A DNA stretch of 64,000 bases from Sulfuricystis thermophila (lineage in GTDB: Bacteria; Pseudomonadota; Gammaproteobacteria; Burkholderiales; Rhodocyclaceae): positions 2,294,001 to 2,358,000 of the forward strand of contig NZ_AP019373.1 in assembly GCF_004323595.1 (NCBI RefSeq). The letters run 5' to 3'. The translations under genes and the position numbers were made by a program. The notes under the pieces were generated by a model. The model did no database searches. It was not told the DNA's origin and saw only the letters and a program-made list of their open reading frames with translations. Shown here in pieces: positions 10,782 to 58,523 of this stretch (within the stretch, counting starts at the first letter, position 1; each line of letters opens with the position of its first letter).

Positions 10782-10804
10782 GCCGTCCTGCCAGCGCCGA
10801 CTTT
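10782..10804 (-). repeat. REP-like half-site in tusA-dsrE2 gap
   Basis: GCCGTCCTGCCAGCGCCGAC followed by TTT: one copy of the dispersed half-site (consensus core CGTCCCGCCAGCGCCGACTT), here with C to T at one stem position. Confidence 0.8.
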
Positions 10805-10821
10805 CCGGCCGAGGCTGCGGC

Positions 10822-11049
10822 TTACTTGCGCTTGATGTAGAACTCGAATTCCTTGTTGTTCTCGGCGCTGGAGAGCAGCTCGTTGCCGGTCTGCTTGGCA
10901 AAGGCCGCGAAGTCCTTCACGGAGCCCGGATCGGTGGCGATGATGCGCAGCACCTGGCCGCTTTGCATTTCGCCCAGCGCCTTCTTGGCACGCAGAATCG
11001 GCAGCGGGCAGTTGAGGCCGCGGGCATCGAGTTCGCGATCGAAATTCAT
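10822..11049 (-). CDS. tusA: TusA-family sulfurtransferase
   Basis: Small sulfur carrier of 75 residues that accepts persulfide sulfur on Cys14 in the signature LNCPLPILRAKKAL. The remainder (IIATDPGSVKDFAAFAKQTGNELL) is the standard TusA beta-alpha fold. TusA in sulfur oxidisers hands sulfur to Dsr or sHdr systems, or takes it from rhodaneses and DsrE2. Here it lies between soeC and dsrE2 on the same strand, which supports a dissimilatory sulfur-trafficking role rather than only tRNA thiolation. Confidence 0.93.
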   Translation of the reverse strand: MNFDRELDARGLNCPLPILRAKKALGEMQSGQVLRIIATDPGSVKDFAAFAKQTGNELLSSAENNKEFEFYIKRK

Positions 11050-11153
11050 TGTCTATCCTCCGATGAGTTGTGGGTGGTTGGAATTACAGCGACTAATGAT
11101 ATAGCCCATTCGTCTTGGCGGCAATCGCAGAAACTTATCGAAATCGAGGCAGA

Positions 11154-12131
11154 TCAAGCGACGGACTGGTAATACAGATTTTGCGGATGGTTGGCCTGGG
11201 CAAAGAAGAACCAGCGCTCCGCCAGCAGGCCGAGATACTGGATGACGAAAGCAATCAGCAGCACACCGCCGGCCATCATCGACATTCCCATGCCAAGCAG
11301 GATGATGGGCGCGACGAAGGCCAGCAGCAGAAACAGCCATTTCACGGCACGCAATAGCGCAGGTTTCTGGCCATGGAAGAACTCGCGCGTGTTGAAGCTG
11401 CCGCCCATCAGGCCCATGCTCTTTTGCACGATCCGTGGATGCTTGATGCCGATCGCGGTTTGCAGGGTCGACTTGGGCTTCAGCCGCGCATTGCGGATCA
11501 GCGTCGCCGACCGGCCCACCAGGCCGAGGAAGGTGATGATCATCGCCCAGCCCGCCAGCAGGGGCATCACAGCGGGCGCCAGCATCGCAGCGAGCGCCGC
11601 ACCCAGGCTGAAACCCGACGCGCCGCCGAGCAGGATGTAATTGATCACGGTGAGCGGCGTATGCCATTCGCGCAGGAACTTCAGACAGGCATAGATCATG
11701 CCGGTGCAGATGTAGAGCGCGAAGGCCAGCAACCAGGCAATCGAGCCGAGCACCGCCGTGAGATTGACCGGCGCGCCGCTCGGCAGCGTCGCCAGCACCG
11801 GATTGAAGCCCGCCCAGTGGGCGGCGCCGTAGAGGAAGACGGTGCCCATGAAGGCTGGCAACACGATCACTTCGCGCGACAGCCACGAGGTGCGCCACTT
11901 CGCCGCCGCGCGCCAGGCGCGCTCGGGATGGCCGAGATGGAAGAACGACGCCACCAGCCCCAGCGCCAGCAGCACCAGCGCGACGAAACTGCCGAAAGCA
12001 TAGAACTCGTCGGACTGCGCCGGCAGCAGGCCGAAGGCCGCGTAGGACTCGACGGTGAACAGCGCCAGGAACAGCCCCTGACCGGCGCCGATCAGCGTGG
12101 TGAGAAAAATGACGGAAAACGCAGGATGCAT
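11154..12131 (-). CDS. soeC: Membrane anchor subunit of molybdoenzyme (SoeC/DmsC family)
   Basis: 325 residues with 8 or so hydrophobic helices. It begins MHPAFSVIFLTTLIGAGQGLFLALFTVE and carries FFHLGHPERAWRA, typical of the DmsC/PsrC-like quinone-reactive anchor family. It follows the iron-sulfur subunit by 14 bp on the same strand and would pass electrons from the cytoplasmic SoeAB to the quinone pool. The name rests on the Tat-less catalytic subunit and sulfur-gene neighbours. A DMSO- or polysulfide-reductase anchor is the alternative. Confidence 0.8.
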   Translation of the reverse strand: MHPAFSVIFLTTLIGAGQGLFLALFTVESYAAFGLLPAQSDEFYAFGSFVALVLLALGLVASFFHLGHPERAWRAAAKWRTSWLSREVIVLPAFMGTVFLYGAAHWAGFNPVLATLPSGAPVNLTAVLGSIAWLLAFALYICTGMIYACLKFLREWHTPLTVINYILLGGASGFSLGAALAAMLAPAVMPLLAGWAMIITFLGLVGRSATLIRNARLKPKSTLQTAIGIKHPRIVQKSMGLMGGSFNTREFFHGQKPALLRAVKWLFLLLAFVAPIILLGMGMSMMAGGVLLIAFVIQYLGLLAERWFFFAQANHPQNLYYQSVA

Positions 12132-12145
12132 CGGGATGTTTCTCC

Positions 12146-12877
12146 TTACCAGCTCGTGACGTCGTCGAGCGCGGGCTCGGCCTTCTCCGGCCTGGGCAGC
12201 TGACGGTCGATCTTGAGCGGATTGTCGGCGCGCTCGAGTTCATCCTCCCGGATCCTGAGCTTGGTCTTGCGCCGCGGCAGGTAGTGGTTGGCCGGCTGCG
12301 TGCCCCATTCGGGCATCAATTGATAGCCGCCGTTTTCGCGGATCGCGCGCGAGACCTCCGACTCGGGGTCGTGGATGTCGCCGAACAGGCGCGCGCCGGT
12401 CGGACAGGCGCGCACACAGGCGGGGCGCCGCTCTTCGGCCGTCATCGTCGTGTCATAGATGCGATCGACGCACAGCGTGCATTTCTTCATCACCTTCTGG
12501 TGCTCGTCGAGCTCGCGCGCGCCATAGGGGCAGGCCCACGAGCAATATTTGCAGCCGATGCACTTGTCGTAGTCGACGAGGACGATGCCGTCCTCCTTGC
12601 GTTTGTAGGAAGCGCCGGTCGGACAGACCGGCACGCAGGGCGGCTCCTCGCAGTGGAGACAGGATTTCGGGAAATGCACCGTCTCGGTGTGCGGAAATTC
12701 GCCGACCTCGAAGGTCTGCACGCGGTTGAAGAAGGTGCCGGTCGGATCCTTGCCATAGGGGTTCAAATCGACCAGCGGGCCGGCCGCGCCGGAAGTGTTC
12801 CACTCCTTGCAGTTGGTGACGCAGGCATGGCAGCCGACGCAGACATTGAGGTCGATCACGAGCGCGAGTTGAGTCAT
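12146..12877 (-). CDS. soeB: Iron-sulfur electron-transfer subunit (SoeB/DmsB-like)
   Basis: 243-residue ferredoxin-like subunit with four cysteine clusters: CVGCHACVTNC, CLHCEEPPCVPVCPTGA, CIGCKYCSWACPYGA, and CTLCVDR with ACVRACPTGA. These bind four [4Fe-4S] centres that wire the molybdenum subunit to the membrane anchor. There is no signal peptide, in line with a cytoplasmic complex. The gene overlaps the catalytic subunit gene by 4 bp, so expression is coupled. Confidence 0.88.
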   Translation of the reverse strand: MTQLALVIDLNVCVGCHACVTNCKEWNTSGAAGPLVDLNPYGKDPTGTFFNRVQTFEVGEFPHTETVHFPKSCLHCEEPPCVPVCPTGASYKRKEDGIVLVDYDKCIGCKYCSWACPYGARELDEHQKVMKKCTLCVDRIYDTTMTAEERRPACVRACPTGARLFGDIHDPESEVSRAIRENGGYQLMPEWGTQPANHYLPRRKTKLRIREDELERADNPLKIDRQLPRPEKAEPALDDVTSW

Positions 12878-15756
12878 GGGTTTTTCCCCGCAAAGTAGTT
12901 CCAGATCGACTTGCGCTCCGGCTGGCCGGGATAGGGTTTGAGCGGCGCGAACTGCGGCTCCGTCCGTGCCGTCTCGCCAGCGCCGACTTCCGCCTTGTAG
13001 ATTCTGACACGCACGTCATACCACGCCGCCTGGCCGGTGATCGGGTCGGAGTTGGAGACGCGCCGCGCATTTGCCTGGGAGCCGCGCTCGCAGGAAGGCA
13101 GCTCTTCCGAGATCAGGTGGTTGAGCAGGAAGCCGCGCTGCGATTCGTTGGCGTCCGGCGTCAGGCCCCAGGCGCCAGCCGCCTTGCCGATGGCGTTCCA
13201 GGTCCAGACCGTGCCCGGCTCGACCGCCTCGGAATGCTTGGCCATGCACTTGACCTTGCCCCACTGCGATTCCACCCAGATCCAGTCGCCGTCCTCGATG
13301 CCGTTCACGCGCGCCGTGTGCGCATTCACGTAGAGCAGGTTGTGGGCGTGGATCTGCCGCAGCCAGGCGTTCTGCGAATCCCAGGAGTGGTACATGGCCA
13401 TCGGCCGCTGCGTGATCGCCGCGAGCGGGTACTTGTGCTTGTCGGTGGCCTGCGCTTCGAGCGTGTCGTAATAGAAGGGTAGCGGATCGAAGAAGGTTTC
13501 GACGCGCTTCGCCAGATGCGCCGGCGGTTTCCGGGAAAAGCCCTTGCCCTGCGCGGCCTGGCGGAAGCGCATCAGCACCTCGGAGTAGATGTTGATCAGG
13601 ATCGGCTCGGCGTAGCGCGTGATGCGGTTGCGCTGGCTCCACTCCAGATAGCCCTGGTTCCAGTTCCTCATGTACTGGTAGCTCTTCGGCAGCTCGTAGT
13701 GGAAGACGCAGTTGTTCTTCGCATACATCTCCCACTGGTTCGGGTTCGGCTCGCCGCGCAGCGACTTCTCGCCGCCCTTGCCGCGCCAGCCGGCCAGAAA
13801 GCCGATGCCGGAGCCCGGCTCGGTCTCGAAATTGACGATGAAGTCCGGATAGTCGCGGTACTTGCGCTGGCCGTCCTTGGTGGTGAAGGCCGGCAGCTTC
13901 AGGCGCGAACCGAGCTCGATCAGCACTTCCTGGAAGGGCTTGCATTCGCCGGTCGGCGGCAGCACGGGGATGCGCACCGAATCGACCGGGCCGTCGAATT
14001 CCGAGATCGGCCGGTCGAGGATCGACATCACGTCGTGGCGCTCGAGATAGGTCGTGTCCGGCAGGATCAGGTCGGCGAAGGCCGTCATCTCGGACTGGAA
14101 GGCATCGGCCACGACGATGAACGGGATCTTGTAGTCGCCGTTCTCGTCCTTGTCGTTCAGCATTTTCCGCACCTCGACGGCGTTCATCGTCGAGTTCCAG
14201 GCCATGTTGGCCATGAAGATCAACAGCGTGTCGATCTTGTAGGGGTCGCCGCGCCAGGCGTTGGTGATGACGTTGTGCATCAGGCCATGCACCGACAGCG
14301 GATACTCCCAGGAAAAGCCCTTGTCGATGCGCACCGGGTTGCCTTCGTCATCGACGAACAGATCGTCGGGATCGGCCGGCCAGCCCAGCGCCATGCCATC
14401 GAGCGGCTTGTTGGGCTGCACGGCATTCGGGTGGTTCGGCGTGCGCGCGCACGGCGGGATCGGCCGCGGGAAGGGCACCTTGTGGCGGAAGCCGCCGGGA
14501 CGGTCGATGGTGCCCAACAACGACATCAGGATGCCCAGCGCGCGGATGGTCTGGAAGCCGTTCGAGTGCGCCGCCAGTCCGCGCATGGCGTGGAAGGCCA
14601 CCGGGTTGCCGGTGACGGTGTCGTGTTCCTTGCCCCAGGAATCGGTCCAGGCGATCGGCAGCTCGATGCGCTGGTCGCGGGCGGTCACGCCCATCTCGTA
14701 GGCGAGGCGGCGTATGGTGTCGGCCGGGATGCCGGTGACGCCTTCGGCCCACTCGGGCGTGTAGTCCTTGACGCGGTCCAGCAGCAACTGGAATGCGGGC
14801 TTGACCGGCGTGCCATTCAGATTGAACTCGCCGAGCAGGCAGGGATCGGCCCCTTCGGCATGGGTCACCACCGCCTTGTTGGTCTTGCGGTCCCACCACA
14901 GCTTGTCCTGCGGGTCGTAGCAGGCTTCTTCCTCGGGCACCTCGGTGCGCAGGAACATGCCGAACTCATCGTCGTTTTCGTCGCAATTGACGAGCTGGCC
15001 GGCATTCGTGTAGCGGACGATGAAGTCGCGGTCATAAAGCCCCTTCTCGATGATCTCGTGGATCACCGCGAGCAGGAAAGCGCCGTCGGTGCCCGGCCGG
15101 ATCGGCACCCACTCGTCGGCGATCGCCGAGTAACCGGTGCGCACCGGGTTGATCGAGACGAAACGGCCGCCATTGCGCTTGAACTGCGAGATCGCGATCT
15201 TGAGCGGATTCGAGTGGTGATCCTCGGCGGTGCCGATCATCACGAAGAGTTTCGCACGGTCGAGGTCCGGACCGCCGAACTCCCAGAACGAGCCGCCGAT
15301 CGTGTAGATCAGCCCTGCCGCCATATTGACCGAGCAGAAGCCGCCATGCGCCGCATAGTTCGGCGTACCGAACTGGCGCGCGAACAGGCCGGTCAGCGCC
15401 TGCATCTGGTCGCGGCCGGTAAACAGCGCGAACTTCTTCGGATCGGTCGCGCGGATCTTGCCGAGGCGCTCTTCGAGGATCGCGAAGGCCTCGTCCCACG
15501 AAATCGGCTCGAACTCGCCGGCGCCGCGCTCGGCTCCGGCCTTGCGTTTGAGCGGACGGGTGAGCCGCGCCGGCGAATACTGCTTCATGATGCCGGATGA
15601 GCCCTTGGCGCAGATCACCCCTTTGTTCAACGGGTGATTCGGGTTGCCGTCGATATAGCGCACCTCGCCATCCTTGAGGTGTACGCGGATACCGCAGCGG
15701 CAAGCGCACATGTAGCAGGTCGTGTTTTTGACTTCCTGCACGGAATTTTCTTTCAC
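12874..15756 (-). CDS. soeA: Molybdopterin oxidoreductase catalytic subunit, probable cytoplasmic sulfite dehydrogenase SoeA
   Basis: 960-residue molybdo-bis-MGD enzyme. An N-terminal [4Fe-4S] site is formed by C14-x2-C17-x3-C21-x27-C49. There is no Tat signal, unlike DmsA or PsrA, which favours the cytoplasmic SoeABC sulfite:quinone oxidoreductase described in Allochromatium. The reaction would be sulfite to sulfate with electrons to quinone. The start is GTG at 15756, preceded by AGGAG. The tusA/dsrE2 and qmo/hdr neighbours support a sulfur role. Residues 923-930 (EVGAGETA) translate an inserted dispersed repeat near the C-terminus. The alternative is another DMSO-reductase family enzyme such as a polysulfide or tetrathionate reductase. 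Confidence 0.82.
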   Translation of the reverse strand: MKENSVQEVKNTTCYMCACRCGIRVHLKDGEVRYIDGNPNHPLNKGVICAKGSSGIMKQYSPARLTRPLKRKAGAERGAGEFEPISWDEAFAILEERLGKIRATDPKKFALFTGRDQMQALTGLFARQFGTPNYAAHGGFCSVNMAAGLIYTIGGSFWEFGGPDLDRAKLFVMIGTAEDHHSNPLKIAISQFKRNGGRFVSINPVRTGYSAIADEWVPIRPGTDGAFLLAVIHEIIEKGLYDRDFIVRYTNAGQLVNCDENDDEFGMFLRTEVPEEEACYDPQDKLWWDRKTNKAVVTHAEGADPCLLGEFNLNGTPVKPAFQLLLDRVKDYTPEWAEGVTGIPADTIRRLAYEMGVTARDQRIELPIAWTDSWGKEHDTVTGNPVAFHAMRGLAAHSNGFQTIRALGILMSLLGTIDRPGGFRHKVPFPRPIPPCARTPNHPNAVQPNKPLDGMALGWPADPDDLFVDDEGNPVRIDKGFSWEYPLSVHGLMHNVITNAWRGDPYKIDTLLIFMANMAWNSTMNAVEVRKMLNDKDENGDYKIPFIVVADAFQSEMTAFADLILPDTTYLERHDVMSILDRPISEFDGPVDSVRIPVLPPTGECKPFQEVLIELGSRLKLPAFTTKDGQRKYRDYPDFIVNFETEPGSGIGFLAGWRGKGGEKSLRGEPNPNQWEMYAKNNCVFHYELPKSYQYMRNWNQGYLEWSQRNRITRYAEPILINIYSEVLMRFRQAAQGKGFSRKPPAHLAKRVETFFDPLPFYYDTLEAQATDKHKYPLAAITQRPMAMYHSWDSQNAWLRQIHAHNLLYVNAHTARVNGIEDGDWIWVESQWGKVKCMAKHSEAVEPGTVWTWNAIGKAAGAWGLTPDANESQRGFLLNHLISEELPSCERGSQANARRVSNSDPITGQAAWYDVRVRIYKAEVGAGETARTEPQFAPLKPYPGQPERKSIWNYFAGKNP
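12966..12989 (-). repeat. REP-like half-site inside soeA
   Basis: GTGCCGTCTCGCCAGCGCCG then ACTT, one mismatch from consensus in the core. It is read on the opposite strand as VGAGETA near the SoeA C-terminus, keeping the frame open. Confidence 0.8.
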
Positions 15757-15874
15757 TCTGTTGGGCTCCTGATTATTAGGGTTTGGTGATATTCTCGCAG
15801 CCTGCCAAGCTTGCTACAAGGTGGTAATTTTTATTGTTTGATAAGCAGATCGAGAATCATCCGGGAGAGATGCC

Positions 15875-16291: not shown

Positions 16292-16292
16292 T

Positions 16293-16435: not shown

Positions 16436-16454
16436 TGACGCGACATACTGCTCG

Positions 16455-16980: not shown

Positions 16981-17492
16981 AAATCTGCATCGTCTCCGAC
17001 AGCCACGACCGCGGCCCGCTGCTCGCCGAAGCAATCGCGCTGGCGAAGACCGAGGGCGCGGAAGCGGTGATCCATTGCGGCGACCTGATCGGCATCAATA
17101 CGCTGAAGGCTTCGCTCAAGCTCGGCCTGCCGATCCATGCCGTGCATGGCAACAACCTCGGCGACCCGGTGGCGATCGCCAAGCTGGCCTGCCGCTCCGA
17201 GGGCCTGCTGCATTATCACGGCAACGATGCCGCGATCGAGCTCGGCGGCCGCAAGATCTTCATCACCCACTACCCGCACATCGGGCGCGCCTTCGCCTGC
17301 ACCGGTGATTACGATCTCGTCTGCTGCGGCCACAGCCACGTGCCGGAAATCCGCCAGGAACCGAACGTCAAGGGCGGCAGCACCTGGCTCGTCAATCCCG
17401 GCACCGTCGCCGGCCTGGGCGCGCCGGAGGCCACCTGGGTCATGGGCGACCTGGCGACGCTGCAATTCGATCTTCGCGTCCTGCCGCGCTGA
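16977..17492 (+). CDS. YfcE/MJ0936-type metallophosphoesterase
   Basis: 171-residue calcineurin-like phosphodiesterase. Metal ligands are visible in order: SDSHDR, HCGDLIG, VHGNNLG, FITHYPH and CCGHSHVPEI. Length and motif spacing match the YfcE/YsnB family, which hydrolyses phosphodiesters such as bis-pNPP with Mn. The physiological substrate is unknown. The GNN in place of the common GNCD is a small departure. Start at 16977 by ATGA overlap with the toxin gene. Confidence 0.88.
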   Translation: MKICIVSDSHDRGPLLAEAIALAKTEGAEAVIHCGDLIGINTLKASLKLGLPIHAVHGNNLGDPVAIAKLACRSEGLLHYHGNDAAIELGGRKIFITHYPHIGRAFACTGDYDLVCCGHSHVPEIRQEPNVKGGSTWLVNPGTVAGLGAPEATWVMGDLATLQFDLRVLPR

Positions 17493-17800
17493 GCATAGGC
17501 GCTGGCGGAAATGAAGTCGCCCCGCCGGGCGCCTCCTTACCTCGGAAAGTCGGCGCTGGCGGGGCGGCACCCTTGCGGCGCTGCGGGTGCTGCAGCGCAA
17601 CAGCAACAAAAGCTTCTATCAATCCATAGGAAGATTCTCGCGCCGATTTGATCTGGCGCATGATCCGGCGCGGAATTAGACGGCTACAATCGGCAACCGA
17701 TTTTGGCGGCGCTCGACCCGTGGCGGTGTTTTCGGCCGAAGCCAACGAGCGAAGGCTGCCGAAGTTTCGTCCTGGCTGTACCCACTCAAACGGAGGCTTG
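17493..17800 (+). repeat. Intergenic region with paired REP-like elements and qmo leader
   Basis: At 17497-17573 two half-sites and one intervening complementary half form a hairpin pair: GGCGCTGGCGG, then GCCCCGCCGGGCGCC, then AAGTCGGCGCTGGCGGGGCG. The rest (17574-17800) is the leader of the qmo operon. A TACAAT at 17685-17690 could be a -10 element but its -35 is poor. AACGGAGGCTTG is the ribosome site for qmoA. Confidence 0.7.
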
Positions 17801-19084: not shown

Positions 19085-19086
19085 CC

Positions 19087-23764: not shown

Positions 23765-23844
23765 GAAAGTCGGCGCTGGAGGAAATGAAAGCGTCCCGCC
23801 GGGCGCCGACTCCTATCGCATAGTCGGTGCTGGCAGGACGGCAC
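23765..23844. repeat. Paired REP-like element (hairpin) after CigR-like gene
   Basis: AAAGTCGGCGCTGG, then GCGTCCCGCCGGGCGCCGAC, then GTCGGTGCTGGCAGGACGGC: alternating half-sites able to form two competing hairpins. It lies directly before the pilA terminator, between convergent genes. Confidence 0.8.
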
Positions 23845-24428: not shown

Positions 24429-24519
24429 GGTAGGTAAAGCTGATTTCGTGCCGGAAAAGCCCCGATTTCACTGCGCCGGCTTTCGTGCGGCGTCAGAATG
24501 TGACGATTTTCGTCACCCT

Positions 24520-24543
24520 GCCGTTCCGCCAGCGCCGAGTTTC
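24520..24543 (-). repeat. REP-like half-site at the HD-GYP stop codon
   Basis: GCCGTTCCGCCAGCGCCGAG then TTT, two mismatches from consensus. It abuts and slightly overlaps the stop codon of the minus-strand HD-GYP gene. Confidence 0.75.
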
Positions 24544-26143
24544 AGAGGTCGATCTGTTCCGGGTCGAGGAAAGCCTGGGCATAACGCAGCCAGACCTTCT
24601 CGCGCAGGAAGACCTCGAACAGGTCCGGGTCGATGTGGCCGTTGGCGGCGAATTTCTTCATGATGCCCAGCGCCTGCGAGAGCTTCATCGCCGGCTTGTA
24701 GGGGCGATCCCTGGCGGTGAGCGCCTCGAAGATGTCGGCGATGCCCATCATGCGCGCCTGCACGGACATTTGCTCGCGGGTCAGGCCCTTCGGATAGCCG
24801 CGGCCGTCCATGCGCTCGTGATGCCCGCCGGCGTATTCGGGCACATGCTTCAGGTGCTTCGGCCAGGGCAGCGCTTCGAGCATCTCGATCGTCGTAACGA
24901 TGTGGTGGTTGATGATCTCGCGTTCGCGCGCGGTCAGGGTGCCGGAGCGGATCGTCAGATTGTCGATTTCGTCGCTATCGAGGAAGTCGGTTTCGACGCC
25001 TTCCGGGCTACGCCACTGCCGTTGCGTGCCGATCTCGCGCACGCGCTGTCGGTCGGCTTCCGGCATCGCCTCGCTGCCGCGGTTGGCTGTGCGCAGAAAT
25101 TCACGCTCGGCATCCAGCTGCGCGAGCTCATGCTTTAGCGATTCCCAGCAGGCGGCTTCGGCCGCGGCATCCTGCGGCACGCGCAGATCGAGTAGGCGCC
25201 GCAGGGTAGCGATCTGCGCATCGCGCTTCAAAACCTCGAAGCGGGTGTCGATGAGTTCGATGCGGTCGAACAGGGTCTGCAGCTTGGTGGCTTTGTCGAC
25301 GACATGCACCGGCGTGGTGATCTTGCCGCAGTCGTGCAGCAGGGCGGCGATCTTCAGCTCGTGCAGATCGGCGGGCTGCAGCGTAAAGTCGGCCAGCGGG
25401 CCGGTCTGCGTCCTATTGACTGCCTCGGCGAGCATCATCGTGAGCTCGGGCACGCGCTGGCAATGGCCGCCGGTGTAGGGTGATTTTTCGTCGATCGCCA
25501 GGTTGATGAGCCGGATGAAGGATTCGAACAGTGTTTCGAGCTGGTCGATCAGCTGGCGGTTGGAAAGCGCGATGGCGGCCTGCGAGGCGAGCGATTCGGC
25601 CAGACGCTGGTCGGCCAGCGTGAAGGCGCGAATCTCGCGCGTCGTCGGGTCGAGGGCATTGATCAGTTGCAGCACGCCGATGATTTCGTTTTCGTGGTTC
25701 TTCATCGGCACGGTGAGAAAAGAGTGAGAGCGGTAGCCGGTGCGCGCATCGAACAGGCGGGTACCTGAAAAATCGAAACCGGCGGCGATGTAGGCATCCG
25801 GAATATTCACCGTCTCGCCGCTCAGCGCCGCATGGGTAGCGACGAGCGCATGGTTGGGCTGCCCTTGCGCATCGTACAGTGGCAGATCGGGAAATTCGAC
25901 CGGCTGGCCGGAGGCACCGCCGAGCGCGAGACCGAGCGCATCGTTCAGGGCGATGGCGAATGAGAGCGCCTGGCCGTCTTCGGTGATGCGATAGAGCGTG
26001 CCGGCCTCGGCGCCGGTGATGGTCTTGGCGGCGACGAGGATGCGTTCGAGCAGGCGGCCGAGATCGCGTTCGCTGGAGAGTGCCGCACCGATCTCGTTGA
26101 GCCGATCGAGTCGCGCGAAAAGATCGTTGGCGGTATCGCTCAC
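24542..26143 (-). CDS. GAF and HD-GYP domain protein, probable c-di-GMP phosphodiesterase
   Basis: 533 residues, GTG start overlapping the preceding stop as GTGA. Residues 10-200 are a GAF sensor. The HD part has LLHDCGK (H270, D271) and the GYP part HHERMDGRGYPKG (from H441). About 115 residues (285-400), partly charged helix, separate the two halves, more than in typical HD-GYP domains. Expected activity is hydrolysis of c-di-GMP to pGpG or GMP. Coupled to the GAF-GspE ATPase gene and one gene upstream of pilA, so control of pilus activity by c-di-GMP is an inference. A longer upstream frame is an overlap artefact. Confidence 0.88.
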   Translation of the reverse strand: MSDTANDLFARLDRLNEIGAALSSERDLGRLLERILVAAKTITGAEAGTLYRITEDGQALSFAIALNDALGLALGGASGQPVEFPDLPLYDAQGQPNHALVATHAALSGETVNIPDAYIAAGFDFSGTRLFDARTGYRSHSFLTVPMKNHENEIIGVLQLINALDPTTREIRAFTLADQRLAESLASQAAIALSNRQLIDQLETLFESFIRLINLAIDEKSPYTGGHCQRVPELTMMLAEAVNRTQTGPLADFTLQPADLHELKIAALLHDCGKITTPVHVVDKATKLQTLFDRIELIDTRFEVLKRDAQIATLRRLLDLRVPQDAAAEAACWESLKHELAQLDAEREFLRTANRGSEAMPEADRQRVREIGTQRQWRSPEGVETDFLDSDEIDNLTIRSGTLTAREREIINHHIVTTIEMLEALPWPKHLKHVPEYAGGHHERMDGRGYPKGLTREQMSVQARMMGIADIFEALTARDRPYKPAMKLSQALGIMKKFAANGHIDPDLFEVFLREKVWLRYAQAFLDPEQIDL

Positions 26144-30276: not shown

Positions 30277-31227
30277 TCAAGGGCAACTGCGGCCCAATCC
30301 TTGCGTGCGAGCGAGCTCGAACAGGCGCCGCGCCACGGCGAGATCCTGGATCGCCATGCCCTGCGATTCGAACAGGGTGATGGCTTGGGGGTCGGTGCGG
30401 CCCGACCGGATGCCGGCAACGATTTCGCCCAGTTCGATCAGCTGACCGGCGCAGAGGCGCCCCTTTTCGAGCGCCGGCAGCAGGTCGCCGGCCTCGCGCA
30501 GTGCCGTTTCCCGGCTATCCACGCAGACCAGGCTCGCACGGCCGACCGCTTTTTCGTCCAGTTCGCGGCGGATCAAGGCGTTGGAGCCGGCGGCATTGAG
30601 GTGCATACCGGGCGCAAGCCACTCGCCTTGCACGACCGGCGTGGCCGAGGTGGTGATGGTGACGACGATGTCACTCCCGCGTACCGCCGCTTCGGCATTG
30701 TCGACCGCCGTGACTTCGACGCCGAAGCGCTGCGCAAAGTCGGCGCTGGCGAGACGGCACTTGTCCGGGTTGCGCGAGTAGAGCTTGACCTGCCGGACGG
30801 GCCGCACCTTGCACAAGGCTTCGAGCTGTCCCTGCGCCTGCCAACCGGCACCGATCATGCCGACGACGGCAGCATCCGGACGCGCCAGATGCTTCGCCGC
30901 GATACCGCCGGCTGCGCCGGTGCGCATCATGCCGAGGAAGTCGGCCTCGATCACCGCCAGCGGCCGACCGTCGGCGGCATCGAACAGATGCACGAGGAAG
31001 CGTGCGCCGGCCTTGCTCGCCGTGTAGGCCTTGTAGCCCATCACGCCCTCGTCGAGCAGCGCCCCCTGCAGGATGTGCAGCGAGGCGGTCGGCACGCGCG
31101 TTCTCTGCCGCGGGATATCGATGGCCCGGCCAAGCGCATGGGCGCGGTGGGCGGCCTCGACCGCCTCCAGCGCCAGATCCATCGTCAACAGCTGGCGAAC
31201 GTCGGCTTCGGAGAGAAACCAGGCCAT
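30277..31227 (-). CDS. Ornithine cyclodeaminase/mu-crystallin family protein
   Basis: 316-residue NAD(P)-binding protein. LSEADVRQLLTMDLALEAVEAA starts the family fold, MMRTGAAGGIAAKHLARPDA leads into the dinucleotide loop VGMIGAGWQAQGQLEAL, and SDIVVTITTSATPV follows. Members include ornithine cyclodeaminase, alanine dehydrogenase and ketimine reductase; the substrate cannot be assigned. Residues 156-163 (CRLASADF) come from an inserted REP-like repeat just after the Rossmann beta2 strand, where the family often tolerates length change. The neighbours sucD/sucC are on the same strand. Confidence 0.85.
   Translation of the reverse strand: MAWFLSEADVRQLLTMDLALEAVEAAHRAHALGRAIDIPRQRTRVPTASLHILQGALLDEGVMGYKAYTASKAGARFLVHLFDAADGRPLAVIEADFLGMMRTGAAGGIAAKHLARPDAAVVGMIGAGWQAQGQLEALCKVRPVRQVKLYSRNPDKCRLASADFAQRFGVEVTAVDNAEAAVRGSDIVVTITTSATPVVQGEWLAPGMHLNAAGSNALIRRELDEKAVGRASLVCVDSRETALREAGDLLPALEKGRLCAGQLIELGEIVAGIRSGRTDPQAITLFESQGMAIQDLAVARRLFELARTQGLGRSCP
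30736..30760 (+). repeat. REP-like half-site inside the cyclodeaminase-like gene
   Basis: AAAGTCGGCGCTGGCGAGAC then GGCAC: one mismatch from consensus. Translated as CRLASADF in the host gene, without a stop or frame change. Confidence 0.8.
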
Positions 31228-31228: not shown

Positions 31229-31254
31229 GTGCCGTCCTGCCAGCGCCGACTTTT
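31229..31254 (-). repeat. REP-like half-site filling the cyclodeaminase-sucD gap
   Basis: GTGCCGTCCTGCCAGCGCCG then ACTTTT. It occupies the whole 25-bp gap and touches the sucD stop codon. Confidence 0.85.
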
Positions 31255-32146
31255 ACAACAGCGATTTGAGCAGCTTACCCATCACCGACGGATCGCGCGT
31301 GATCTTGAAGCCGCATTCTTCCATGATCGCCAGCTTCGCCTCCGCCGTATCGGCGCCGCCGGAGATCAAGGCGCCGGCATGCCCCATGCGCTTGCCGGGC
31401 GGCGCGGTGACGCCGGCGATGAAGCCGACGATCGGCTTTTTCATGTGGTCCTTGCACCAGCGTGCGGCGTCGGCTTCGTCCGGACCGCCGATTTCGCCGA
31501 TCATGATCACCGCGTCGGTGTCCGGGTCGTCGTTGAACATCTTCATCACGTCGATGTGCTTGAGGCCGTTGATCGGGTCGCCGCCGATGCCGACCGCCGA
31601 GGACTGGCCCAGCCCCAGCTCGGTGAGCTGCGCGACCGCTTCATAGGTGAGCGTGCCGGAGCGCGAGACGACGCCGACGCGGCCTTTTTTGTGGATGTGG
31701 CCGGGCATGATGCCGATCTTGATCTCGTCCGGGGTGATGAGGCCGGGACAGTTGGGGCCCAGCAGCAGGGTTTCCTTGCCGCCCTGGGCGACTTTGCGCT
31801 TCATCTTGTTGCGGACGATCAGCATGTCGCGCACCGGAATGCCTTCGGTGATGCAGATGACCAGATCGAGGTCGGCCTCGACCGCTTCCCAGATCGCCTC
31901 GGCGGCGCCCGCCGGCGGCACGTAGATCACGGAGACGGTGGCACCGGTGGCCTCTTTCGCCTCCTTGACCGAAGCGTAGATCGGGATGTCGAAGATCTTC
32001 TCGCCGGCCTTCTTGGGATTGACGCCGGCGACGAAGCAGTGCTTGCCGTTGGCGTACTCGATGCACTTTTCGGTGTGGAACTGGCCGGTCTTGCCGGTGA
32101 TGCCCTGGGTGATGACCTTGGTGTCCTTGTTGATGAGGATCGACAT
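31253..32146 (-). CDS. sucD: Succinyl-CoA ligase alpha subunit
   Basis: 297 residues. TCA-cycle enzyme interconverting succinyl-CoA and succinate with ATP or GTP formation. N-terminal CoA-binding fold ([13 protein letters not shown]), GPNCPG, and the phospho-His loop [14 protein letters not shown] near residue 247 are present. Directly follows sucC (11 bp) on the same strand. It supplies or drains succinyl-CoA made by aromatic-acid degradation. Confidence 0.97.
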
Positions 32147-36375: not shown

Positions 36376-37530
36376 ATGCTTTCGCCATGGTCGCGCAACG
36401 GCACAATCGCGTCATCCTCATTCATCGAGCGACCCGCGACCTTGAGCCGCCCAGCATCCACTCTGCGAACGAAGCTTCTCACCGGCCTGATCCTCGTTTG
36501 GCCGTGGGGAGCCGAGGCCCAACCGCCTGCCGCACTGCCCACGCCGGCGCCTGCCGTACGCACCATTTCCGATGAGGCGTTCCAGCGCTGGCTCAAGGAG
36601 GACACGCAAGTCATCAATGGCATCCTGGCGAGCCTGACGCACATCGACGCCCTGCTCGCCGACATCGAGCGGGTGGTGCGGCAATTGCCCGATATAGGCG
36701 CGGCACCGAAACCAGCACCGCCGCCTGTCGTAGTCGAGAAAACCGTCGTCGAGGAGGTGGAAGTCCCCGGCCCCCTCGGCGGCTGGATGCCCACACTTTC
36801 GGGGGCCGCCCTGCTGGCACTTCTGGCGTTCTGGCTGGGCAGGAAACAGGGCGCGAAGCAAGCGCCGACGACGGCAAGGGCGAAGCTTGCCGAGCCAGCG
36901 GCAGCCTCTGCGGCGGAAAAGCGCAGCATTCCACCAGCTCCACCACCAGCCCTCCCCAAGGAATCCCCGGCCCAGCCCGCGGCAGTCACTGCGACGCCGA
37001 CAACACCCGCGCCGGCTGCTCCCGCACCGTCGTTGGTCCAGCCGCTTCCGACACCGGTCGAGCCCGAGCCGTCATCGATCGAAGCCCCCGCGTCCGAAGA
37101 GACCGATCAGGCCATCGAGCTCGCCGAGGTCATGCTGTCGATGGGCCTGGGCCATGGCGCGGTGCAAGCACTGACCGAAAAGATCCGCAGCGAACCGAAA
37201 CAGGCGCTGCGGCACTGGCTCAAGCTGCTCGAGATCTATCGCAGGAACGGCCAGCAGGCGGAGTTCGAGCGCTCGGCGGAGGAGCTGCGTCTGCATTTCA
37301 ACGTTCGCCCAGAAGACTGGCACCCGCAACCGGGTGGGCAGCAGACGCTCGAAAATTTCCCGCACATCACCAAACGTCTCACCGAGCTATGGGGCACCGC
37401 AGATTGTCTCCTGTATATGCAGAACCTGCTCGCCGACAACCGCGGCGGCGCACGGTCGGGCTTTCCGCAACCGGTCGCCGAGGAGTTGCTGCTCCTGATT
37501 TCGCTGATGCGCGCGGCTCACTTCAACTAG
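36376..37530 (+). CDS. FimV C-terminal-like membrane protein
   Basis: 384 residues. A signal-like hydrophobic stretch ends near WGAEA (residue 49 of the long frame; the true start may be later). There is a predicted coiled segment (70-100), a transmembrane helix at about 140-158 ([15 protein letters not shown]), a long Pro/Ala-rich cytoplasmic linker, and a TPR-like end ([42 protein letters not shown]) as in FimV C-terminal domains. No LysM domain was seen. FimV proteins support type IV pilus assembly and polar organisation. Stop codons overlap convergently with the Nif3 gene. Confidence 0.65.
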
Positions 37531-38273
37531 ACAGGATTGTCGATCTCGACGAACTCGCACTCGAGACCGAAGCGCTCGGCCAGATGCCGGCCCAACGCCA
37601 TCACGCCATAACGCTCCGTCGCATGATGGCCGGCCGCCAGATAGATTACGCCAGTTTCGCGCGCCAGATGCACGGTGTGTTCGGAAATCTCGCCTGACAG
37701 GAACAGGTCGGCGCCGGCGGCGATGGCCGCTTCGAACCAGTCCTGCGCACCGCCGCTGCACCAGGCGACGGTGCGTATCAACCGCGCCGAGTCACCGATC
37801 ATGAGCGGCGGGCGCTCCAGCACACGCGCCGCCTGTTCGGCGATGTCTCCTGCAAAACTCGGCGCTGGCAACACGGCACGACAGCCCAGTTCGTGCTCGC
37901 CGAAATGGCCGTCGATCGTCCAACCGAAGCGCAGGGCGAGCTGCGCGTTGTTGCCGACCTCGGGATGGGCATCGAGCGGCAGGTGATAGGCGATCAGGTT
38001 GATGTCGTGCGCGAGCAGGCGCTGCAGGCGCTGCTTGCGAAAGCCGGTGATGCGGCCGTCCTCGCCCTTCCAGAACCAGCCGTGATGCACGAGCAGCGCA
38101 TCGGCGCCGCGTTCGATCGCCGCTTCGATCAGCGCCAGGTTCGCGGTGACGCCGCAGACGATGCGGCGAATCTCGTCGCGTCCTTCCACTTGCAAGCCGT
38201 TTGGGCAATAATCGCGAAAGCGCTCAGGCGCCAGCATGCCATTCAGATAAGCCGTCAATTCCTCGCGTCGCAC
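37527..38273 (-). CDS. Nif3-like dinuclear metal-centre protein (DUF34)
   Basis: 248 residues. The metal-ligand clusters [49 protein letters not shown] and the cap region match the Nif3/YbgI family, hexameric proteins binding two metals, with GTP-cyclohydrolase-like or unknown function. The segment AVLPAPSFA at residues 131-139 comes from an inserted REP-like repeat. Divergent from the protease gene that follows, 14 bp apart, sharing a compact control region. Confidence 0.88.
37854..37881 (+). repeat. REP-like half-site inside the Nif3 gene
   Basis: AAACTCGGCGCTGGCAACAC then GGCAC, three mismatches or so from consensus. Translated in frame in the minus-strand gene as AVLPAPSFA. Confidence 0.7.
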
Positions 38274-40700: not shown

Positions 40701-40744
40701 GAAAATCGGCGCTGGCGGAACGGCACGCGCAGCAGAATTTTCAC
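40701..40744 (+). repeat. Chimeric repeat: REP-like half-site joined to a MITE end
   Basis: AAATCGGCGCTGGCGGAACG then GCAC (a half-site with two changes) is followed at once by CGCGCAGCAGAATTTTCAC, which equals one end of the 143-bp MITE. It occupies the tatB-tatA gap. Confidence 0.75.
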
Positions 40745-42099: not shown

Positions 42100-42858
42100 C
42101 TACAGCCGCACCTCGATTCCCTGGGCGCGCATGAATTCCTTGGCCTGCCGCACGGTGTATTCGCCGTAATGGAAAATGCTCGCCGCCAGCACCGCATCGG
42201 CACGGCCCTGTGTCACGCCGTCGGCGAGATGCTGCAGGTTGCCCACACCGCCGCTGGCGATCACCGGAATCGGCACCGCATCGGCCACCGCGCGCGTGAG
42301 CGCCAGATCGAAGCCGTTTTTCGTGCCATCGCGGTCCATGCTGGTGAGCAGAATCTCGCCGGCGCCCAAGTCCGCCACCCGTCTCGCCCATTCGATCGCA
42401 TCGAGATGCGTGTTGTTGCGCCCGCCGTGCGTGAACACCTCCCACTTGCCGGGCGCGGTCTGTTTGGCGTCGATCGCGACGACGATGCATTGGCTGCCGA
42501 CCTTCGCGGCGGCATCATTGATGAGCTGCGGATTTTGCACCGCGGCGGTATTGATGCTCACCTTGTCGGCGCCGGCGTTCAACAGCCGCCGCACGTCCTC
42601 GACCTTGCGCACGCCGCCACCGACGGTGAGCGGAATGAACACCTGCTCCGCGCAGGCCTCGACGATGTGCAGGATGATGTCGCGCTGATCGGAACTCGCG
42701 GTGATGTCGAGAAAGGTGATCTCATCCGCCCCTTGCTCGTCATAGCGGCGCGCGATCTCGACCGGATCACCGGCGTCGCGCAAGGCGACGAAGTTGACGC
42801 CCTTGACGACACGGCCGGCATTGACGTCGAGGCAGGGAATGATGCGCTTGGCGAGCAT
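42100..42858 (-). CDS. hisF: Imidazole glycerol phosphate synthase cyclase subunit
   Basis: 252-residue TIM barrel, [20 protein letters not shown] to [10 protein letters not shown], with catalytic Asp residues in IPCLDV and VASGGVG. Works with HisH to make IGP and AICAR. Start at 42858 is the family N-terminus; upstream is a repeat. Confidence 0.97.
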
Positions 42859-42861: not shown

Positions 42862-42886
42862 TAGAGTCGGCGCTGGCGGGACGGCA
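42862..42886 (+). repeat. REP-like half-site filling the hisF-hisA gap
   Basis: AGTCGGCGCTGGCGGGACGG then CAC, near-perfect match to consensus. It is essentially the whole 28-bp gap between hisA stop and hisF start. Confidence 0.88.
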
Positions 42887-43630
42887 CTATCGAGAAGCGC
42901 ACTTGTCCGCCTCGGCCTGCGCCTTGCGGAAATCGAGTTTGCCTTCGTAGATCGCGCGCCCGGTGATCGCGCCCATGATGCCCTCGTCGGCCACCGCGCA
43001 CAGCGCCTTGATGTCATGCAGGCTGGAAATGCCGCCGCTGGCGATGACCGGGATCTTCAGCGCCCGGGCGAGCTTGACGGTCGCATCGATGTTCGGCCCG
43101 GTGAGCATGCCATCGCGGCCGATGTCGGTGTAGATCACCGCTTCGACGCCATAGTCCTCGAATTTCCGCGCCAGATCGATCACATCGTGCCCGGTCATCT
43201 TCGACCAGCCGTCGACGGCCACCTTGCCGTCCTTGGCGTCCAGCCCGACGATGATGTGACCGGGAAAAGCCACGCAGGCGTCGTGCAGGAAGCCGGGGTT
43301 CTTCACCGCGGCCGTGCCGATGATGATGTAGCTGATGCCGTCGTCGAGACAGCGCTCGATGGTGTCGAGATCACGGATGCCACCGCCCAACTGCACCGGT
43401 ATCTCATCGCCCACCTCCTTGAGGATCGCCTTGATCGCCGGTTCGTTTTTCGGCTTGCCGGCAAAGGCGCCATTGAGATCCACGAGATGGAGACGACGCG
43501 CGCCTTCGTCGATCCAGTGGCGCGCCATCGCGGCCGGATCTTCGGAAAACACCGTGGCATCGTCCATGACGCCCTGCTTGAGGCGCACGCAATGTCCGTC
43601 CTTCAGATCGATCGCGGGTATCAGCAACAT
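42887..43630 (-). CDS. hisA: Phosphoribosylformimino-AICAR ribotide isomerase
   Basis: 247-residue TIM barrel ([20 protein letters not shown]...[10 protein letters not shown]...[16 protein letters not shown]) with the two phosphate-binding repeats. Isomerises ProFAR to PRFAR. Member of the minus-strand his operon between hisH and hisF. Confidence 0.97.
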
Positions 43631-47999: not shown

Positions 48000-49623
<1,624 letters not shown>

Positions 49624-51608: not shown

Positions 51609-51612
51609 TGAG

Positions 51613-53695: not shown

Positions 53696-53846
53696 GGGCA
53701 ATCGATGCGAAAAAATTAGCCGTGGATTATATACGTGCGTCCTGTATGCTGACGTTGGCAGGCTTCGGCAACCAGATCGGCCGTCATGGCCGTCATGAAA
53801 CAGGTTTTTCATCAATAGCCGAACGATGAGGGTAAGATTGCTTGTT

Positions 53847-55280: not shown

Positions 55281-55288
55281 TCCGCGCA

Positions 55289-56650
55289 ATGTATCTCGAA
55301 CACTATGGCCTGAACGAACCACCTTTCCGCATCACGCCGCACACCGATTTCTTCTTTTCCGGCGCCAACCGCGGCGCGACGCTGGAAGCGCTGCTGTATG
55401 CGATCACCCACGACGAGGGCATCGTCAAGATCAGCGGCGAGGTGGGCAGCGGCAAGACGATGCTCTGCCGCGTGCTGATGGAGCGCCTGCCGGCCAGCGT
55501 CGTCGTCATCTATCTCGCCAACCCCTCCCTCTCGCGCGAGGACATTCTCTATGCGTTGGCCGACGAACTCGGCATTCCGCCTCTCGACAACAGCCGACCC
55601 GCGACGGTGATGCGCGCCCTGCAGGAAAAACTGGTCGAGCTCTATGCCGAGGGCAAGCAGGTCGTCGTGCTGATCGACGAGGCGCATGCAATGCCCGTCG
55701 ACACGCTGGAGGAGATTCGCCTGCTGTCGAACCTCGAATCGAACCGTCACAAGCTGCTGCAACTGGTGCTGTTCGGCCAGCCCGAGCTCGATGTCACACT
55801 GGCACGGCCAGACATGCGCCAGCTGCGCGAACGGATCACGCACAATTTCCGCCTCGAACCCCTCGTCCAGGCCGACATCGCGGAATATCTCGATTTCCGC
55901 ATGCGTGCCGCCGGCTACCGCGGCCCGAGCGTCTTCACACCGGAAGCGGTCAGGCATATCGCCAAGGCCTCCGCCGGGCTGACGCGACGCATCAACATTC
56001 TCGCCGACAAGGCGCTGCTGGCCTCCTTTGCCAATGGCAGCCATCAAGTGGACGGCCAGGAAATCGAAGCCGCCATCCGTGATGCCGAGTTCTCCGAACT
56101 GCCCAAGCCGGTGCGCCGTTCCAGTACTCCTGGCGCACTGCTCTGGGCAGCCGGCGGAGCGGTCACGATGCTCACCCTGGTTGGCATTTGGCTATTCGCC
56201 ACCCGCCCCAGCGAACCGGCTGCACCGCCCAGCCCCCCGCAAGCCGTCGAACCGCCCCCGCCACCCGAGGCTCCCGCAGTACCCGAAAACGCCAGCGCAA
56301 CGCCCTTGCTCGACAAGCTGCTGGAAGAGAGCCGTCCCTGGCTCGAGACGGTGGCCGACAATCGCTGGTTCATCCAATTGTTCACGGCCATCGACGCCAA
56401 CGATCCTGCTCAGGTGGAATCCTTTCTGGCAAACATCCGCAATGCCGGTCTGGAGATGGGGCAGGTGCGGGTTTATCGTTTGACCAGCGGCGACAAACCA
56501 CGTTATGGCATCCTGTATGGAGATTATGTTTCGCGCCAGGAAGCCGTCAATGTTCTGAATGCACTGCCACCCGAGGCGAAGCGTTATCACCCCTACCCTC
56601 GTCAGGCACTCCGGCTGAAATTGCCAGGCAAGACCATGAACAAAGACTGA
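55289..56650 (+). CDS. mshM: MshM/ExeA-like AAA ATPase with SPOR-like C-terminus
   Basis: 453 residues. YLEHYGLNEPPFRITPHTDFFFSGANRGATLEALLYAI is the ExeA/MshM N-terminus; Walker A GEVGSGKT (about 50) and Walker B VVLIDEAHAM follow. A transmembrane helix lies at about 283-306 (LWAAGGAVTMLTLVGIWLF), a Pro-rich linker, and a C-terminal SPOR-like peptidoglycan-binding module (VRVYRLTSGDKPRYGILYGDYVSRQEAVNVLNAL). It probably opens the peptidoglycan for the MshL secretin. Longer upstream frame is a shadow. Confidence 0.9.
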   Translation: MYLEHYGLNEPPFRITPHTDFFFSGANRGATLEALLYAITHDEGIVKISGEVGSGKTMLCRVLMERLPASVVVIYLANPSLSREDILYALADELGIPPLDNSRPATVMRALQEKLVELYAEGKQVVVLIDEAHAMPVDTLEEIRLLSNLESNRHKLLQLVLFGQPELDVTLARPDMRQLRERITHNFRLEPLVQADIAEYLDFRMRAAGYRGPSVFTPEAVRHIAKASAGLTRRINILADKALLASFANGSHQVDGQEIEAAIRDAEFSELPKPVRRSSTPGALLWAAGGAVTMLTLVGIWLFATRPSEPAAPPSPPQAVEPPPPPEAPAVPENASATPLLDKLLEESRPWLETVADNRWFIQLFTAIDANDPAQVESFLANIRNAGLEMGQVRVYRLTSGDKPRYGILYGDYVSRQEAVNVLNALPPEAKRYHPYPRQALRLKLPGKTMNKD

Positions 56651-56732
56651 TCTCTGAGGATATTCAGATGCTTGCCCATCCCCCTGCCGATGCTAGGATC
56701 ATTGGAATCCTCCATTCCCGCTCGCACCGGCC

Positions 56733-58523
56733 ATGAAAAAACCCTTTTCGATCGCCCTGCTCGCACTGTCGCTCGCGGCCTGCAGCAACGCCCCGATCCA
56801 GCCACCGGGAGAAAGTCATCTGCGCGCGGAGAAAGTCGGCGCTGGCGGGACGGCACAGATTCCCCCGCCCGTGAGGCAGACCCTCGCCCTGCCGAAGCCG
56901 AAACCCACCGCCAAGACTGAAACCTACAGCGTGGTCGTCAACAACGTGCGGGTGCAGGAGCTCCTGTTCGCCCTGGCGCGCGATGCGAAACTCAATGTTG
57001 ACATCCATCCCGGCATCGAGGGCACGGTGACGCTGAATGCGATCGACCAGACGCTGCAACAGCTCCTCAACCGCATCGCGAAACAAGTCGACATCCGCTG
57101 GGAGCTCGACGGCCCGAATCTGGTGGTCATGCCTGACACCCCTTTCCTGCGCACCTACAAGGTCGACTACGTGAACATGCAGCGGGATACCAACAGCACG
57201 GTCATCGTCAATTCGCAAATCGGCGCAGCGGCAACCGGGACAGCCACGGCGACGACCATCAGCCAGGGCAATAACTCCCAGACCAAGATCGAAAACAAGA
57301 CCCAAAACCGCTTCTGGGAAACCCTGGAGGCCAACATCAAGGACATCCTGCGCGAGACCGACAAGATCTTGCCAGCCGGATCGAGCGAGACGGTCATCGA
57401 GCGCCTCGATGAGCAAACGACGACGGGCACTGGGGCGCCTCCACCGCCCACCCGCGGCAACGCCGCGCCAAATCTGGCCATCAGTCCCAATCCGGCATCG
57501 TTGCAGCAAAGCGGGGTGACCGTCACGCGCCGCAGCACCTTCCGCGAAGCGGCCTCCGTGATCACCAACCCCGAAACCGGCATCATCACCGTTCGCGCCA
57601 CCAGCCGTCAGCATGAAAAAGTGCGGGAATTCCTCGATCAGGTGATGAGCGCCGCCCAACGCCAAGTGCTCATCGAAGCGACCGTCGCCGAAGTCGAGCT
57701 CTCCGACAATTACCAGCAGGGCATCGACTGGCGGCTGCTCAGTCGCAGCCTGGCGGCAGCTGGTGCGATCGATGGCAATATGGTTGCCCAGGCCGCCACT
57801 GGCTTGATCACCCTGCAGAGCACTCGCCGCAGCGGCACGTTCCAGGCGACAATCAAGTTGCTCGAAGACTATGGCAACGTCAAAATACTCTCCAGCCCTA
57901 AACTTTCCGTGCTGAACAACCAGACCGCGCTGCTGCGTGTGGTGACCAACAACGTGTATTTCACCGTCAAGTCGGATGTCGCGGCCGGCGTCAGCGGTTC
58001 GGCGCCAGTCAAGGCGATCACGACGACGCCGCAAACCGTTGCCGTCGGTTTCGTGATGGCCGTCACGCCGCAGATCAGCGACGGCAATACCATCACACTG
58101 AATGTCCGCCCCTCGATCACCAGCATCGTCGATGCCGTGAAAGATCCCAACCCGGACCTGAACATCGACAGTCTGATCCCGGTGATCCGCACGCGCGAGA
58201 TGGAGTCCGTACTGCGCATCGAGAGCGGCAACATCGCCGTGATGGGCGGCCTGATGGAAGACAAGCTCGATTACAAGAACCAGGGGCTGCCTGCACTCTC
58301 CGGCCTGCCCCTGTTCGGGCCGCTGTTCCAGCAACGGAACGATACGCGCAAGAAAACCGAGCTGGTGGTCTTCTTACGTCCTGTCATCATCAAGGATGCC
58401 AGCTTGCAGGGAGATTATGGCGATTATCGCCACCTGCTCCCGGCCAAGGACTTTTTCGAGAAGGGCAACCTCGGCCCCCCTCAACCGCAGCTGCCCACGA
58501 GCACATGGGGTGACCGTCAGTGA
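56733..58523 (+). CDS. mshL: MSHA-type pilus secretin MshL
   Basis: 596-residue outer membrane lipoprotein secretin. Lipobox LSLAACSNA (residue 17), STN-like domain (VVVNNVRVQELLFALARDAKLNVDIHPG), N-domain, then the C-terminal secretin core (VLIEATVAEVELSDNYQQGIDWRLL, KILSSPKLSVLNNQTALLRVV, MGGLMEDKLDYKNQGLPALSGLPLFGPLF). The ring through which the pilus exits. A REP-like repeat (VGAGGTA, residues 35-41) sits in the Pro-rich linker just behind the lipid anchor. Confidence 0.93.
   Translation: MKKPFSIALLALSLAACSNAPIQPPGESHLRAEKVGAGGTAQIPPPVRQTLALPKPKPTAKTETYSVVVNNVRVQELLFALARDAKLNVDIHPGIEGTVTLNAIDQTLQQLLNRIAKQVDIRWELDGPNLVVMPDTPFLRTYKVDYVNMQRDTNSTVIVNSQIGAAATGTATATTISQGNNSQTKIENKTQNRFWETLEANIKDILRETDKILPAGSSETVIERLDEQTTTGTGAPPPPTRGNAAPNLAISPNPASLQQSGVTVTRRSTFREAASVITNPETGIITVRATSRQHEKVREFLDQVMSAAQRQVLIEATVAEVELSDNYQQGIDWRLLSRSLAAAGAIDGNMVAQAATGLITLQSTRRSGTFQATIKLLEDYGNVKILSSPKLSVLNNQTALLRVVTNNVYFTVKSDVAAGVSGSAPVKAITTTPQTVAVGFVMAVTPQISDGNTITLNVRPSITSIVDAVKDPNPDLNIDSLIPVIRTREMESVLRIESGNIAVMGGLMEDKLDYKNQGLPALSGLPLFGPLFQQRNDTRKKTELVVFLRPVIIKDASLQGDYGDYRHLLPAKDFFEKGNLGPPQPQLPTSTWGDRQ
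56831..56856 (+). repeat. REP-like half-site inside mshL
   Basis: GAAAGTCGGCGCTGGCGGGA then CGGCAC, a perfect consensus match in coding sequence, read as KVGAGGTA in the flexible lipoprotein linker. Confidence 0.88.

Follow-up and report, generated by a model that had tools for sequence, protein, structure and literature searches.

The window analysed here, a stretch of 64 kb (positions 2,294,001-2,358,000) in the complete genome of Sulfuricystis thermophila (G000; 2,737,315 bases), holds at thirteen places a short repeat, the 25-bp motif GTGCCGTCYCGCCAGCGCCGACTTT, which lies between genes as well as inside conserved ones. An earlier note on this DNA, made from its letters alone, had named at least a dozen places with a half-site; the motif was found within a few bases of each of the twelve named, and a thirteenth place, the first of the following list, had been overlooked. 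Genes were called with a hexamer gene finder made for this analysis, not with a standard annotator.

6669-6693 (+): motif copy with 3 mismatches inside the predicted gene 6565-7488 (+), PF03706
10780-10804 (+): motif copy, intergenic
12966-12990 (+): motif copy, antisense in the molybdopterin oxidoreductase gene 12874-15756 (-), reads EVGAGETA
17492-17570 (-): motif (17546-17570) and one palindromic 54-bp unit, intergenic, common to the same-genus genome G002
23766-23844 (-): motif (23820-23844) and one palindromic 54-bp unit, intergenic, common to G002
24518-24542 (+): motif copy, touches the 3' edge of the predicted gene 24542-26143 (-)
30736-30760 (-): motif copy, sense in the ornithine cyclodeaminase-family gene 30277-31227 (-), reads CRLASADF
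31229-31253 (+): motif copy between the genes 30277-31227 (-) and 31253-32146 (-)
37855-37879 (-): motif copy, sense in the NIF3 gene 37527-38273 (-), reads RAVLPAPSF
40702-40726 (-): motif copy, intergenic
42863-42887 (-): motif copy between the genes 42100-42858 (-) and 42887-43630 (-)
49049-49181 (+): motif (49049-49073), then two tandem palindromic 54-bp units, in frame inside murA 48000-49382 (-)
56832-56856 (-): motif copy with the exact consensus, antisense near the start of the secretin gene 56733-58523 (+), reads KVGAGGTA

The copy at 37855 and the extra tandem halves deviate from the motif by 4-5 mismatches. Pfam backed the families that had been read into the five conserved host genes (molybdopterin oxidoreductase, OCD/mu-crystallin, NIF3, EPSP-synthase family and secretin), and the best solved structures identified the EPSP-synthase-family host as MurA. 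The hairpins described earlier were present at three of the thirteen places, the two intergenic units and the units inside murA, while the 25-mer alone forms none (-0.5 kcal/mol, z +1.07).

The window holds 13 matches to the 20-mer CGTCCCGCCAGCGCCGACTT with up to three mismatches, where 100 shuffles gave 0.06 on average; the repeat is real and does not occur at the frequency of random GC-rich sequence, a possibility that the earlier note had raised itself. Across the genome, this 20-mer was found 192 times forward and 198 times reverse with up to two mismatches, and the full 25-mer 427 times on both strands (215 + 212) with up to three, a density of 1 per 6.4 kb; the reversed-pattern controls gave no match in either case. 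Sampled statistics refer to the window and 20 chosen stretches, in all 464 kb of the 2.74 Mb, with 89 copies at up to five mismatches, 79 of them alone and 10 in hairpins. A logo of 88 copies with up to five mismatches from these 464 kb presented a sharp, non-palindromic motif of 25 bp without a clearly conserved base on either side, and because of this sharpness the half-site has to be seen as the element itself. Each site carries 36.0 bits of information; 13.6 bits are enough to mark 427 places. Open-access literature searches yielded no report of the motif.

Forty-five of the 79 lone copies were located inside predicted genes, 22 between genes and 12 on an edge. Predicted genes make up 92 % of the sampled bases; the motif is therefore rarer in genes than their share would give, although many copies do lie there. 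The consensus has no stop codon in any of its six frames, and the 45 genic copies were read as antisense KVGAGGTA (23 copies), sense AVPPAPTF (11), antisense KSALAGRH (6), sense CRLASADF (4) and one other peptide; the VGAGGTA-like peptides noticed earlier are thus explained by the commonest, antisense reading. The genome sequence starts at a DnaA-like gene. The sampled copies showed no difference in strand use between the genome halves (first half 34/23 (+/-), second half 15/7, p=0.61), and a replication-polar signal was rejected on this result and the 192 forward and 198 reverse matches. A role as transcriptional terminator as in Neisseria was rejected as well: an exact inverted match of at least 10 bases within 45 bases downstream was present at one of 77 copies in S. 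thermophila and at none in the other scanned genomes, a strict test that bulged 54-bp hairpins escape, and predicted coding sequences (CDS) contain 19 of 29 hairpin arms.

Constraint on the DNA of the motif was evident from the comparison with G002, in which strong and weak motif positions had been set from the S. thermophila logo beforehand. Forty-eight of the 79 lone copies were alignable and 31 were without alignment, the 10 hairpin copies being excluded; 39 of the 48 were shared with up to five mismatches, six had 6-8 mismatches and three at least nine. Strong positions had diverged by 7.8 % (n=952), weak positions by 25.4 % (n=236) and the flanks by 14.8 % (n=5347), with p=3e-12 for strong against weak positions. 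At third codon positions, 18 of 215 strong, 16 of 49 weak and 290 of 1185 flank sites were changed. Two blocks were nearly frozen, positions 1-5 (3 of 240 diverged) and 15-20 (8 of 288), and the middle had diverged no less than the flanks (78 of 383). The constrained blocks read TGCCG and GCGCCGA with the tolerant middle between them, a pattern that looks like a bipartite binding site held by selection or drive.

In rigid protein regions the copies were aligned with motif-free proteins largely without gaps. The motif residues of an HrpA-like helicase (L036) were ungapped against all six motif-free orthologues, and those of NIF3 against both (G006, G007) as well as against E. coli YbgI (1nmo), where a two-residue gap follows directly after the motif. 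The cyclodeaminase copy (30736-30760) was ungapped against the solved homologue 6t3e; in the comparison with 1omo, a gap of one residue lies a little ahead of the copy. For alanine racemase (L044:4814), three of ten motif-free orthologues were ungapped, the others presented short gaps or insertions, none of them a clean gap of motif size. Judged by these alignments, the 25-mer copies in rigid regions are substitutions in place, not insertions. The earlier note had proposed an inserted coding repeat and had itself named the lack of orthologues without these bases as contrary evidence; at the rigid sites exactly this was observed for the 25-mer, and its proposal holds for the 54-bp unit in murA.

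The spacing over 64 gaps was more even than random (coefficient of variation 0.58 compared to 0.96), and this evenness was not reached in any of 2000 random trials; copies less than 100 bp apart had been merged in the observed set only. The 20-kb stretch L047, prophage-like by its genes, contained no copy, and its neighbours had 0 copies in 60 kb where 12.0 were expected; these three 20-kb stretches were chosen after L047 had been seen empty. The resulting 80 kb without the motif, one region, hold phage, transposase and metal-efflux genes by gene content. By this gene content, and not by absence from relatives, the motif-free DNA was judged to be recently acquired. The next copies begin at 1,948,677, close to genes of core-like appearance, a GroEL-like one among them. 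The motif-free region covers G000:C1:1860001-1948600 (L537, L538, L047, L539 and the start of L540), on the low side at least this far, and includes a prophage, several transposases and metal-efflux-like genes. As a separate observation, one stretch of a viral contig (L441) has five motif copies, four of them 316 bp apart.

Among 395 genomes of the family Rhodocyclaceae, searched with up to two mismatches, 54 had at least 250 matches, three had 40-77 and 338 had 19 or fewer, as counted by eye. The high-count carriers were 18 of the 19 genomes of this genus, 21 of 22 in g2, all nine in g88, all four in g70, plus G026 and G079. The genus-mate G006 (87 % complete) presented no motif copy, though it has ComEC and DprA; its sequence is interrupted by runs of N, and no other dialect appeared among the most frequent 12-mers in ~0.2 Mb. 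Across the order, 27 of 399 genomes had any match with up to one mismatch and none outside the Rhodocyclaceae had more than five. In other families the few copies are clustered, two or three in a few kb (G428:C3:26361-30943, G475:C34:277116-285480, G590:C24:161-7176, G047:C29:70402-74367), a pattern to be expected if the DNA came from carriers by transfer or if the contigs are contaminants. Dialects were recognised in G017, G026, G086 and G079. In the first three the consensus letters differ at fixed positions: CGCCGTCcCGCCAGCRCCGACTTTT in G026 (22 sites), cGCCGTnnCnCCAGCGTCGACTTTT in G086 (11 sites) and CGCCGCCcCGCCRGCGCCGAGTTTY in G017 (9 sites), all gathered in small numbers with a pattern like that of S. 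thermophila. Other words were abundant elsewhere: GTGTCGTTGCCG occurs 19 times in 80 kb of G087 (L401-L404), and the palindrome CTTCTATAGAAG gives eight counts over both strands, that is four places, in 80 kb of G064 (L413-L416).

Genes for DNA uptake were widespread in the 35 genomes tested, with ComEC in all and DprA above the cut-off in 34; in the carrier G019 the DprA match is only weak. A ComP-like receptor tracking the motif was sought among these genomes with PF16732 (ComP_DUS) and none was found. The match in S. thermophila is, by look, a PilE-like pilin beside FimT-like and PilV-like genes. This pilin cluster at G000:C1:1710354-1712931 (L046:10354-12931) includes candidate DNA receptors.

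A minority of the copies is joined to a palindromic unit of 54 bp. The hairpin arm AGTCGGCGCCCGGCGGGACG was found 34 + 34 times in S. thermophila with up to three mismatches (reversed control 3). For 29 of the 30 best arms, a motif or half motif starts 33 bases ahead of the arm, and a 17-base half motif comes 29 bases after it (30 in two cases); the remaining arm (L116) is unrelated. Tandem units stand 54 bp apart, and motif plus arm (53 nt) fold stably (-24.4 kcal/mol, z -5.87). Among the genomes scanned, the unit accompanies the motif only in G000 and G002. Elsewhere in the genus the scan covered 16 further genomes, G006 not among them, with ~0.56 Mb in all including overlaps; the arm matches there had 3-4 mismatches and no adjoining motif in the contexts printed. 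Two units (2 x 54, 108 bases) occupy the murA gene of G000 and G002 where the genus-mate G004 keeps the bare 25-mer, and the MurA of S. thermophila is ~38 residues longer at this site than the solved MurA 6wfm. For these reasons the 54-bp unit is, on the comparison of the three genes and the structure, an addition in frame beside an existing motif. A palindromic in-frame insertion with an empty site in an orthologue was thus found for the 54-bp unit at one locus, murA.

In our analysis the 25-bp motif is probably a DNA uptake sequence (DUS), and it is treated here as a candidate, since its abundance, DNA constraint, even spacing, dialects and gap in DNA judged foreign match the traits of DUS and of the uptake signal sequences (USS). 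The sharp edges, the two-block form and the in-place origin at rigid protein sites speak for it as well. The accessible parts of the literature describe both as rare in newly acquired DNA, relatively even, conserved and divided into dialects (PMC3630211, PMC2397512, PMC12616744, PMC7811141). We infer competence, a sequence-specific uptake and a receptor. A receptor on the type IV pilus competence machinery would recognise the motif and favour uptake and recombination of DNA of the own kind; biased uptake and homologous recombination would then spread the motif to those parts of the core genome that accept it, a molecular drive that would leave it in genes in whatever frame the protein tolerates. 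In G000 and G002, the palindromic 54-bp unit has been added beside motif copies as a further event. With somewhat less confidence, we favour the wider view that a DNA self-recognition system for natural transformation arose in part of the Rhodocyclaceae, separately from those of the Neisseriaceae and Pasteurellaceae. Its 25-bp motif, long and bipartite, would have split into genus- and species-level dialects and in one lineage would have become the seed of a palindromic 54-bp element expanding in frame inside essential genes.

Several observations weigh against an uptake sequence. The density is far below the ~1 per kb given for H. influenzae in the accessible part of PMC7811141, and 25 bp are long compared to the 9-12 nt of DUS and USS (PMC12616744, as far as accessible), with longer extended USS mentioned there and in PMC7811141. 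ComEC and DprA are equally present in motif-free relatives, and ComP_DUS, present in 34 of the 35 genomes, does not track the motif and is missing in the carrier G086. At least 120 stretches of IMG/VR viral contigs (L417 onward) carry the exact motif, which fits badly with a strict absence from foreign DNA. For codon positions 1 and 2 alone, the conservation of strong positions over the flanks was not significant (p 0.28 and 0.07). Length differences also accompany some copies: at the loop site L036:8674 the motif-free G021 and G006 are shorter by 12 and 10 residues, while an equally short loop holds the motif in G012 (3 mismatches) and in G026 (4); at the ParC-like C-terminal site L044:13345 motif-free relatives are shorter by ~4 residues; IspH is at its copy 3 residues longer than solved IspH; and the copy at 42863 stands opposite gaps of 20-24 bases in G012 and G001. 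Published DUS, in the accessible descriptions, are likewise often opposite gaps in other genomes.

The serious rival is that a chromosome-organising or segregation protein binds the motif, whose evenly distributed copies would be kept in place by selection on the bound DNA. Even spacing, a constraint on the DNA at third codon positions, a bipartite motif and a late appearance in new DNA would also follow from such a protein, but the 36.0 bits per site are far above the 13.6 needed and suggest a drive over mere recognition, the copies presented no polarity with replication, and the absence from G006 together with the patchy distribution over the family is odd for an essential chromosome function; we regard this explanation as unlikely. 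Chi-type signals are short, with a strand bias that follows replication. The over-representation of the motif, its frequent genic position and its absence from one island would fit a signal of this kind, read inside the cell for recombination or repair, but a length of 25 bp without strand bias makes it extremely improbable.

The 25-mer could also be a mobile or once-mobile short element inserted and tolerated in genes: a half-site of repetitive extragenic palindromic (REP) sequences, a miniature inverted-repeat transposable element or a palindromic element of the Rickettsia type. The high copy number, the motif-built 54-bp unit inserted in murA, the 19 of 29 motif-linked arms in predicted CDS and the gap differences at several loop and intergenic sites are in line with this. 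The 25-mer itself is not self-palindromic, its orthologues are ungapped at rigid sites, its constraint is position-specific and it has dialects, and the 54-bp unit was seen in two genomes compared to the 25-mer in 18 of the 19 of the genus. PF01797, the family of the REP-associated tyrosine transposases (RAYT), had no match in S. thermophila and in 13 of its 18 genus-mates and was found in 5 of the 19 genus genomes, so that the search for a RAYT-type transposase proposed by the earlier note came out empty in G000. We hold a mobile 25-mer for very improbable. A REP/RAYT origin was rejected for it on the missing palindrome, the missing PF01797, the 45 of 79 lone copies in CDS and the ungapped rigid sites, and an insertion of the Rickettsia type was rejected at rigid sites on the ungapped orthologues and kept for the 54-bp unit. 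Of the REP-like element and the Rickettsia parallel that the earlier note had drawn, the palindromic 54-bp minority remains, the latter parallel at the murA locus; neither is supported for the bare 25-bp half-site, which makes up 79 of the 89 sampled copies.

Uptake sequences are a textbook case of self/non-self DNA recognition. If the motif is one, a new bacterial family with such a system would permit tests of how uptake-sequence systems arise, because genomes with the motif, its dialects and relatives without it, one of these within the genus, occur side by side. Recombination barriers, and genes that have left these bacteria by transfer, would moreover be recognisable in genome sequences by the motif. 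From the nested palindromic unit a path suggests itself by which a recognition site becomes a repeat spreading inside proteins.

The DUS GCCGTCTGAA (ATGCCGTCTGAA) shares only TGCCGTC with the motif, which may be chance. Neisseriaceae and Pasteurellaceae are, in the accessible part of a paper of 2025 (PMC12616744), the only families known with uptake sequences. The Neisseriaceae DUS, with the minor pilin ComP as receptor, resembles the motif in its many copies in and between genes, its clade dialects, its absence from recently acquired genes and its conservation (PMC3630211, PMC2397512 and PMC12616744, as far as accessible). The motif differs by its 25 bp in two blocks compared to 10-12 nt, by a lower density, by the lack of the required CTG core (PMC3630211, accessible part) and by the lack of a ComP partner that tracks it. 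With the Pasteurellaceae USS it has in common a relatively even distribution, an under-representation in new DNA and the model of molecular drive (accessible part of PMC7811141), but it lacks the GCGG core (accessible part of PMC12616744) and belongs to a different family. REP sequences and bacterial interspersed mosaic elements (BIME) with RAYT are comparable to the 54-bp unit, a stable imperfect palindrome that is sometimes in tandem, whereas the 25-mer is non-palindromic, has many copies in genes and is without a RAYT-family match in S. thermophila. Rickettsia palindromic elements are in-frame palindromic insertions in conserved proteins. The 54-bp unit shares with them the in-frame insertion in the conserved MurA, but grows beside an uptake-like motif and was seen in two relatives only. 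BRE, a ~90-bp repeat (75-91 bp) of Bordetella and other Betaproteobacteria with up to 29 copies per genome, differs from the unit in size and copy number, and resembles it, in a comparison by description with the accessible part of PMC3110155, in habit: tandem runs, a mostly intergenic position with some copies in coding sequences, and a possible past mobility.

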